Assembly: GCA_018820855.1 (NCBI GenBank)
Contig: JAHJNL010000040.1
Location: 1 to 64,000 of the forward strand
DNA from: Pseudomonadota bacterium
Lineage (GTDB): Bacteria > Desulfobacterota > Desulfobulbia > Desulfobulbales > Desulfocapsaceae
Direction: 5' to 3'
Length of the DNA: 64,000 nt
In this document: positions 2,608 through 4,671 of the stretch, piece after piece
Layout of the letters: every line of letters begins with the position of its first letter
Numbering within the stretch: the stretch's first letter is position 1
Position numbers and translations under genes: made by a program
Notes under the pieces: model-generated
Databases searched by the model: none
What the model was told of the DNA's origin: nothing
The model's input: only the letters and a program-made list of their open reading frames with translations

Positions 2608-3123
2608 TCAGTCTGACAGCGCAGGCAGGAGTTTTTGCAGTTCCGTTTCGACGGTGTTATCGATGCAGGCAAAAATGACTTGCTGCAGAGTGTCAGTTTT
2701 AGAGAGAAAGGCGACTGTTTCTGCCATGGCAATTTTGCAGGCTTTGTTCGGGGGAAAGCCGTAAGCACCGCAGCTGATGGCTGGAAAAGCGATGGACTTG
2801 AGATTGTTTTGGTCCGCCAAGAGAAAGCATTGCCGGTAGCAGGAGGCAAGGAGTTCGGGTTCCCCGTTATGGCCTCCCCGCCAGATAGGGCCCACCGTGT
2901 GAATTACGTGGCGGGCCGGGAGCTTGTGCCCTCCAGTGATCCTGGCCTCTCCGGTCAGGCAGCCGCCGATCTTTCGGCATTCGTCAAGCAGGCCAGGGCC
3001 TGCAGCGGTGTGGATGGCACCGTCCACACCGCCACCTCCGAGGAGAGAGTTGTTGGCGGCGTTGACAATAGCATCTACTGCAAGGGTGGTAATGTCAGCC
3101 CGGATGACTTTAATGGAACTCAT
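2608..3123 (-). CDS. Macro-domain protein (O-acetyl-ADP-ribose deacetylase family)
   Basis: A 171-residue stand-alone macro domain of the YmdB/MacroD type. Family members bind ADP-ribose and remove acetyl groups from O-acetyl-ADP-ribose, or ADP-ribose from acidic residues. The diagnostic motifs are present: DAIVNAANNSLLGGGGVDGAIH near residue 17, GEARITGGHKLPARHVIHTVGP near 58, and FPAISCGAYGFP near 113. The length is typical. Its ATG overlaps the stop of the upstream selenoprotein gene (ATGA), so translation is probably coupled. An ADP-ribosylglycohydrolase homologue is transcribed divergently about 630 bp away, which suggests a locus concerned with ADP-ribose turnover. The exact substrate is not evident. 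Confidence 0.92.
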   Translation of the reverse strand: MSSIKVIRADITTLAVDAIVNAANNSLLGGGGVDGAIHTAAGPGLLDECRKIGGCLTGEARITGGHKLPARHVIHTVGPIWRGGHNGEPELLASCYRQCFLLADQNNLKSIAFPAISCGAYGFPPNKACKIAMAETVAFLSKTDTLQQVIFACIDNTVETELQKLLPALSD

Positions 3124-3602
3124 GGCTTGTTCTGCCTCCGCATCTCTTTTTCGAGAAGCTCACCAAGGAAAAGTGTGAAATCACCAACCAGCTCAATGCA
3201 GTATTTTCGACGGCTGTTTGGGTCGGAATAGTAGTCTTTCACTGCATTCCTGTCGTGCCAGTCAAGGCGGGCAATATCGCGGCAGTTGGAGCCTCCGTGG
3301 CATTCGGTCAGTTTTTCGAATTTGTTCACCAGGTTATGGCTGAGTCCCCAGACGCGGGGATTTTCCCGGTCCTCCAGATTTCCTCTGCTGTACAGTGTAG
3401 AGACAACTGCCACTGCACCGAGCAGGGTACCGCAGACAGATCCTGAGCCGGCTATGCCACCGCCAAAGGCACCAACGGCTTTGATAACCTCTTCATCTGT
3501 TCGCGCTACTTTATCCAGGCCCACGGCCAGAATGGCCTGGCTTCAGTGGAAACGTTTGTTAAATAGCTCAATGGCCTTTTCTCTCATCTCTTCAGGGGTC
3601 AT
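3120..3602 (-). CDS. C_GCAxxG_C_C family redox protein, predicted selenoprotein (in-frame UGA)
   Basis: Read through one TGA (3543-3545), this gives 160 residues starting MTPEEMREKAIELF, behind a GGAGAAAATC ribosome site. The UGA is codon 20 and is followed by SQAILAVGLDK. Family members have a cysteine exactly there (pattern CSQAVL or CAQAVL), so the codon reads as selenocysteine. The rest fits the family: CGTLLG at residue 57, a Cys in GGSNC, and a Cys in RRKYC. Without readthrough the frame would begin at GTG 3524 and lack the first redox residue. A hairpin directly after the UGA could act as a SECIS. The gene overlaps the macro-domain gene by 4 bp. Function is a putative redox role only; the partner is unknown. 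A nonsense mutation is the alternative, but its exact position at the conserved Cys argues against that. Confidence 0.82.
3514..3542 (-). promoter_or_regulatory. Candidate bacterial SECIS element
   Basis: Immediately 3' of the UGA on the minus strand, CCAGGCC pairs with GGCCTGG around a 12-base loop that contains GG. An alternative fold pairs GGCC with GGCC around a GTG loop, with 18 bases between UGA and loop. The second fold meets the usual bacterial SECIS spacing and a G early in the loop. I cannot tell which fold forms. Less convincing alone than the element in the rhodanese gene. Confidence 0.55.
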
Positions 3603-3756
3603 GATTTTCTCCGATCGTTATATTTTTCATTCACAGCAATCGATTCTGTTAGTAGTATGCAAAATATACCATATTTGTCAGGAAATGTCAGTGCGGAGGT
3701 GTGTCGGCAATGATAATCTTTCACCTTAACAAGGGGTTAGACTAAGCGGAGGCGCG

Positions 3757-4671
3757 ATGATGAAGGATAAGGCAAGGGCCATGGTTCTGGCCTCTTTTGT
3801 GGGTGATGCATTGGCATTAGGGCCCCACTGGATCTATGAAACGGATAGGATCGAAAAAGAGTTCGGCAGAGTGGAGAATCTTTGTTCGCCACTGGCTGAT
3901 TCGTATCACCCTGGCAAGGGAAAGGGCGATTTTACCCATTACGGAGATCAAGCCTTGGTACTCATGAAGTCAGTGGCAGCCAACAGGGGCTTTGTTCTTG
4001 ATGACTTCAGTCGTCGCTGGCAGGATTTTTTTGCCGATTATGACGGGTATGTTGATTCTGCGACCAAGGAAACCCTGGAGAACTTCGCCAAAGGGGCTGG
4101 GCCGCAGAACAGCGGTGCAAATTCCTCGGATCTCGGCGGTGTGGCTCGGATAGCTGCACTGGCGTATCGCTACCGGGATGATTCTGATGGGATGTTGACT
4201 GCAGTCCACGCCCAGACGGCCATGACCCATGCGGCTTCTGCCTCACTGGCCGGTGCTGATTTTCTCAGTCGCACCCTTTTTTTCATACTGCAAGGGGCGT
4301 CTCCCCAGGAGGCCATAGAAGAGGCCTTGGGTGCAGGGGTGGCAGATATGGCACTGGATATGCGTTTGGCTGTGGCTCTTGATTCAGCAGGGAAGGATAG
4401 CCGTCAGACGATTGCCCGTTTTGGGCAGATGTGCACCATCGTCTCGGCCCTGCCTGGTGTTGTGCATCTGGTACTGACTTATGGTGATGATTTGCGAACA
4501 GCACTGATTGAGAATGTTATGGCAGGTGGCGATTCTGCCGCCAGAGGTATGGTTACCGGCATGATTCTGGGAGCATCTCTCGGACTTGATGCCATACCGG
4601 GAGAGTGGCTGCAGGAGATGACTCGATATGATGAGATCATCGCTCTGCTGGCAGAGCTGGAGGATCAGTGA
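3757..4671 (+). CDS. ADP-ribosylglycohydrolase / J1-crystallin-like family protein
   Basis: A 304-residue all-helical protein of the ADP-ribosylglycohydrolase superfamily (DraG, ARH3, J1-crystallin). It has the opening motif ASFVGDALALGPHWIYE, then GDFTHYGDQ near residue 52, LTH-type helices, and GGDSAARGMVTGMILG near residue 265. True hydrolases carry TDDT and GGDTD metal ligands. Here these are THYGDQ and GGDSAA, as in the crystallin-like branch, so hydrolase activity is not assured. The start has a GCGGAGG site 8 bases upstream. It is divergent from the macro-domain/selenoprotein pair, and the 154-bp gap may hold both promoters. The context supports an ADP-ribose-related role. Confidence 0.85.
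   Translation: MMKDKARAMVLASFVGDALALGPHWIYETDRIEKEFGRVENLCSPLADSYHPGKGKGDFTHYGDQALVLMKSVAANRGFVLDDFSRRWQDFFADYDGYVDSATKETLENFAKGAGPQNSGANSSDLGGVARIAALAYRYRDDSDGMLTAVHAQTAMTHAASASLAGADFLSRTLFFILQGASPQEAIEEALGAGVADMALDMRLAVALDSAGKDSRQTIARFGQMCTIVSALPGVVHLVLTYGDDLRTALIENVMAGGDSAARGMVTGMILGASLGLDAIPGEWLQEMTRYDEIIALLAELEDQ

Follow-up and report, generated by a model that had tools for sequence, protein, structure and literature searches.

Selenoproteins of the C_GCAxxG_C_C family are already known, and the gene described here is a further member. NCBIfam names its model TIGR01909 'C-GCAxxG-C-C family (seleno)protein', with selenoprotein members on record, and the Pfam annotation reads 'putative redox-active protein'. 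In the available portions of two reviews, the family is entered as 'form 1' and 'form 2' (PMC13188914) and as a single entry (PMC9312934). These entries, as far as the portions extend, print no Sec motif, whereas the subfamily studied here has HUSQAIL. The name 'GCAxxG' is absent from the main text of Zhang and Gladyshev 2008 (PMC2398784), the source of form 2.

The gene lies in a 64,000-nucleotide stretch of DNA, which we refer to as the window. With Cys put for Sec, its protein exceeds the cut-offs of PF09719 (74.4 bits against 27, E 1e-20) and TIGR01909 (59.1 bits against 47.4), and it has the same four Cys places as the (seleno)protein family. The best NCBIfam E-value (8e-20) comes from the DVU_1555 family C-GCAxxG-C-C protein model NF045669, on which the score of 70.9 bits is under the cut-off of 103. 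The HUGP/GUXX-star fusion selenoprotein model NF045501 aligns over residues 4–139 (profile 8–144 of 236) with 42.3 bits. This is far below its cut-off of 325, and the window protein stops before a second domain. Judging by the model name and the alignment offset, the His-Sec of NF045501 would fall on H19-U20 of the window protein. A further relative is split-Soret cytochrome c, a dihaem c-type cytochrome. Its structure, 1H21, has four Cys positions that recur in the window protein, one of them as Sec; 1H21 has extra sequence, and the translation of the window gene is without a CxxCH.

A frame interrupted at codon 20

The features of the gene are as follows.

3120..3602, minus strand: predicted selenoprotein gene of the C_GCAxxG_C_C family, encoding 160 residues (Sec20); the coordinates include the TGA stop
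3609..3612, minus strand: GGAG, probable ribosome-binding site, six bases 5' of ATG 3602
3543..3545, minus strand: in-frame TGA, codon 20, a very probable selenocysteine codon; 93/93 distinct genes have TGA or a Cys codon here
3513..3533, minus strand: SECIS-shaped hairpin of eight pairs and a U-U mismatch; it begins 9 nt downstream of the TGA and has its loop at 18 nt
3522..3524, minus strand: GUG apical loop, which is codon 27 (Val) and the GTG start in the list of open reading frames
3432..3434, minus strand: Cys57 codon (CGxxxG motif), invariant in alignment A1
3282..3284, minus strand: Cys107 codon, invariant in alignment A1
3198..3200, minus strand: Cys135 codon, invariant in alignment A1

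On the minus strand, the frame that begins at ATG 3602 continues with SQAIL directly after the codon 20 TGA and is then open to the TGA stop at 3122-3120. The initial annotation had described an in-frame TGA at 3543-3545 between an ATG with a ribosome site and a frame that continues the family, and this is what we find, with GGAG at 3612-3609 and a PF09719 match at E 1e-20. It had placed the TGA at the first conserved Cys of the family; codon 20 indeed aligns with that column, and the protein scores above the TIGR01909 cut-off. The four conserved Cys that it took to define the family correspond to invariant Cys columns at 20 (Sec), 57, 107 and 135 in the 69 rows of A1. Cys101 lies outside the invariant and nearly invariant columns of this alignment. 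The expectation that gene callers would truncate the gene to GTG 3524 also held, the mechanical list of open reading frames beginning the remainder after the TGA exactly there.

Coding constraint is seen on both sides of the TGA. Pairwise differences among eleven Sec-type genes number 861, 497 and 2158 at codon positions 1, 2 and 3 of codons 21–96, and 56, 39 and 507 at those of codons 1–19. Since the latter concentrate at third positions, the codons before the TGA are, on this comparison of sequences, under protein constraint too. A true stop at codon 20 would leave no reason for constraint on codons 1–19.

These data bear on whether the TGA stops translation, the functional product being a shorter protein from GTG 3524. 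Such a protein, of 134 residues, would still score 53 bits on TIGR01909, over the cut-off, but neither the first, invariant Cys nor helix 1 would be part of it, and the constraint on codons 1–19 speaks against it. Moreover, its GTG is the loop of the hairpin, and an AGG at eleven bases is the sole resemblance to a ribosome site upstream. We consider a product of this kind very improbable. A UGA read as selenocysteine is the reading that we prefer for codon 20.

Codon 20 among relatives, its hairpin and the decoding machinery

A search at the level of the order found a relative at E 1e-10 in 95 of 257 genomes. These relatives and nine further loci, of which eight duplicate genes already included, constitute the codon set, which comprises 102 loci with 62 TGA, 34 TGC and 6 TGT at codon 20. 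When identical 60-base stretches are counted once, 93 distinct genes remain, the window gene included: 54 have TGA, 39 have TGC or TGT and none has another codon. The 54 TGA genes come from 53 genomes, among them that of the window. Codon 20 is uncovered in L122, L128, L129 and L130, which are outside all of these counts. The TGA is not there by chance, since all 93 distinct genes have only TGA or TGC/TGT, and because relatives have TGA or a Cys codon at exactly the same place, codon 20 is very probably selenocysteine. We put the probability of this reading at about 0.95.

The pattern holds at different distances from the window gene. All 16 genes found in the same genus have TGA at codon 20 (four genus genomes gave no match), and beyond the genus the codon is TGA or Cys. 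Eight loci from named records (for example Desulfocapsa sp., Desulfocapsa sulfexigens and Desulfobulbaceae) show 64–83% identity. A sample of the phylum has PF09719 members in 236 of 395 genomes; among the matches listed, an in-frame TGA occurs in at least 27, and 26 of those 27 have it at the same first Cys. The exception, L165, is a PF09719 gene that keeps the first Cys and has its in-frame TGA 17 residues later, which is either a second Sec site or the mark of a broken gene. No relative of the window gene was found among PLSDB plasmids. A protein tree of 91 rows (54 Sec, 37 Cys), computed with codon 20 masked, requires four changes between the two forms; without a known root, these may be gains or losses. 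The tree omits 11 loci, namely the eight second copies from the named records, one identical protein and two short ones.

The TGA might simply be a true stop in a pseudogene, or a sequencing error. It does interrupt the frame, and the list of open reading frames does begin at GTG 3524. However, 54 distinct genes from 53 genomes have TGA at this very codon, the others have only Cys codons there, and coding constraint is seen on both sides. We regard a broken or misread gene as extremely improbable. The initial annotation had inferred a selenoprotein rather than a broken gene, a view that the exchange of TGA and Cys codons supports, as does the Sec machinery described below. Close relatives with neither Cys nor UGA at this position, which it had named as evidence that would count against a selenoprotein, are not seen (54 TGA, 39 TGC/TGT, 0 other).

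A bacterial SECIS element is modelled as a hairpin with a loop of 3–9 nt and a G in the first two places, 16–37 nt after the UGA (PMC13188914, in the portion available). The hairpin of the window gene (3533-3513; AUUC-U-GGCC-GUG-GGCC-U-GGAU), at -8.4 kcal/mol or -7.6 kcal/mol for the 21 nt alone, matches this model in shape and place. By itself it is marginal, with a p of 0.07 relative to synonymous shuffles and a z of -1.5 when the 21 nt are taken on their own. The lowest-energy fold of 41 nt at the window gene is a competing helix without SECIS shape (-13.5 kcal/mol), and Rfam gave only chance matches in 1001 bases near the gene (best E 1.5). Because a 49-nt fold at the window gene is no better than shuffles (z -0.59), the hairpin was tested across the set of relatives.

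Across this set, the best hairpin averages -9.5 kcal/mol in the 54 UGA genes, compared with -4.6 kcal/mol in synonymous shuffles, while the 39 Cys genes average -4.7 against -4.6 kcal/mol. Its loop lies 17–19 nt past codon 20 in 53 of 54 UGA genes versus 8 of 39 Cys genes; taken gene by gene, p 0.05 is reached by only 19 of the 54. The stem differs in the 13 genes of a distant second Sec clade, 12 of which have CGUG as the loop, at 19 nt. One Cys-form gene in a Syntrophobacteraceae record (L063:4001-4480, 56% identical to the window protein) keeps five of the eight pairs of the window hairpin. Its best SECIS-shaped hairpin is no better than shuffles (p 0.55), and the gene is possibly a case of change from Sec to Cys.

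The initial annotation had called for a search for selA, selB, selC and selD, taking the absence of selB or selC as a sign against a selenoprotein. All four are present in the 4.8-Mb genome: selA (609.5 bits), selB (367.7 bits), selD (366.6 bits) and a tRNA-Sec (73.4 bits on RF01852; anticodon tca by ARAGORN). The selD gene (L022:1501-2442) has one in-frame TGA of its own and probably encodes a selenoprotein itself. Among the 53 genomes that contribute TGA genes, a selB match at E 1e-60 is present in 48. Three of the other five have selA over the cut-off, G106 has a partial match and G006 has none; four of the five are 63–84% complete (G006 63%) and G115 is 98% complete. Since selB also occurs in 31 of 39 Cys-form genomes, its presence discriminates little between the two forms.

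A changed code, in which UGA stands for another amino acid in this genome, is vanishingly improbable. No point in its favour was found, whereas Cys is the sole replacement in homologues, the Sec machinery is complete and TGA serves as a normal stop, terminating 5 of 6 neighbouring open reading frames of the window.

For the selenocysteine reading, we propose that SelB and tRNA-Sec would decode the UGA at codon 20, with the hairpin immediately 3' of it directing Sec insertion, and that the product would be a 160-residue helical C_GCAxxG_C_C protein with Sec20. The exchange of Sec and Cys, the constraint on two sides, the placed hairpin, which most Cys genes are without, and the machinery are apparent from comparison of genes and genomes; that the full-length selenoprotein is made, we infer. 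The gene is a clear case in which standard gene calling would truncate a selenoprotein, the likely false start sitting in the SECIS loop itself.

Kinship with split-Soret cytochrome c and a putative iron site

The AlphaFold model of the protein, with Cys at 20, is all-helical and confident (mean pLDDT 96.5, pTM 0.91). Residues 20 and 107 are at helix starts and residue 57 is just before a helix. In a search of PDB sequences with the A1 profile, the sole match up to E 1 is split-Soret cytochrome c (1H21, E 9.2e-5). Structural comparison of the model with 397 chains by VIA-align 2 gives 1H21 a Z of 14.1 (rmsd 4.0, 143 aligned, model residues 1–159) and the next chain 4.6, where for helical models a Z under about 13 may reflect arrangement only. 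Foldseek with the model returned no match at E 0.001, and 1H21 is absent from its best 50 rows. The gap in Z to the next chain, together with the independent sequence match, argues for kinship between the predicted protein and split-Soret cytochrome c. We found no published link between the C_GCAxxG_C_C family and split-Soret cytochrome c in the literature searched.

The kinship extends to the Cys positions. The same genome has a split-Soret relative (L012), which scores 142 bits on NF047622, below the cut-off of 400. Its alignment with 1H21 (2.4e-33) has Cys in both proteins at the F-C, V/I-CG, LCH and RC places. An hhalign alignment of A1 with the split-Soret sequence (E 0.0012, probability only 19.5%) has positions 20, 57, 107 and 135 on these same four Cys. 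By NF047622, the window protein is not itself a split-Soret cytochrome (15.6 bits against 400).

The title of the 1H21 entry names a novel iron centre. Abreu et al. in 2003 reportedly described an EPR centre, perhaps of the [2Fe-2S] type, that the crystal, obtained from cytochrome purified aerobically, lacks. We propose a Cys3Sec iron site on the basis of the split-Soret kinship, the kept set of Cys and two published tables, in the portions available. One, from proteomics, has a family member as 'putative FeS cluster-binding' (PMC8322314), and the other, of an iron stimulon, has a Bacteroides family member beside an Nramp metal transporter (PMC10434189). The chemistry that we favour is a metal site of Sec20, Cys57, Cys107 and Cys135 that would bind iron, as the homologous split-Soret cytochrome c is reported to do, and that Sec would tune or protect. 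By analogy, such a putative site in the window protein is a tentative but real prospect. That Sec is a direct ligand of the iron, instead of serving close by as a selenol that acts on a substrate, is a guess and on balance unlikely.

The chemistry of the protein, which we likewise infer, may instead be that of a metal-free thiol/selenol redox site with a Sec-Cys bond, a possibility to be taken seriously. Sec at a redox-active Cys is the usual case, and the Pfam label of a putative redox-active protein points the same way. Against this, the sequence around the Sec site is H-U-S-Q, without a CxxC or UxxC motif, and the four invariant positions are separate and all retained in split-Soret cytochrome c. 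The entry of a member as putatively FeS cluster-binding in the available table (PMC8322314) also disfavours a metal-free site.

If the iron site is true, a small protein that exists in twin Sec and Cys forms would allow the effect of selenium as a simple iron-centre ligand to be measured. Sec-metal bonds are described in large Mo/W formate dehydrogenases and in NiFeSe hydrogenases (PMC13188914, in the portion available), and the site would be a case outside both. The new lead concerns mechanism: the tie to split-Soret cytochrome c hints that selenium may stand beside iron. In its most general and still doubtful form, the proposal is that C_GCAxxG_C_C proteins might be haem-free split-Soret relatives with a four-Cys iron centre, possibly [2Fe-2S]. 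In the present subfamily one ligand would be Sec, exchanged with Cys at least four times, giving a natural Cys3Sec site with native Cys4 twins.

Neighbouring genes

Two genes flank the predicted selenoprotein gene.

2608..3123, minus strand: macro-domain protein (O-acetyl-ADP-ribose deacetylase type), in ATGA overlap with the selenoprotein stop
3757-4671, divergent: ADP-ribosylglycohydrolase

Of the 16 genus genomes with the selenoprotein gene, 9 have the macro-domain gene after it. In nine genus genomes, including that of the window, the ATG of the macro-domain gene begins with the A of the selenoprotein gene's last codon (ATGA), which suits translation that continues to the gene end. The divergent ADP-ribosylglycohydrolase is found in three genomes (that of the window, G109 and G098), several loci having short flanks. 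The two make up an ADP-ribose pair around the gene in part of the genus only, and a TatD neighbour is likewise confined to genus loci. None of these three neighbours was found at the loci outside the genus where they were looked for, so we build no function on them.

Elsewhere in the window, a scan for TGA-interrupted frames gave 88 candidates, and none of the 60 listed was a second selenoprotein by eye. In the literature, the pairing of 'Desulfocapsa' with 'selenoprotein' gave a match that, in the portion available, concerns Geobacter ExtI.

The distant Sec clade and its Cys cousins (L097-L120) have other neighbours. Three kinds of gene lie near them in the same orientation: at 13 loci (7 Sec, 6 Cys) a glyoxalase-type gene resembling methylmalonyl-CoA epimerase, at 12 (5 Sec, 7 Cys) a carboxyl transferase, and at 6, all of them Sec, a methylmalonyl-CoA mutase. 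A link between this PF09719 selenoprotein and the methylmalonyl-CoA pathway is possible from these neighbours.
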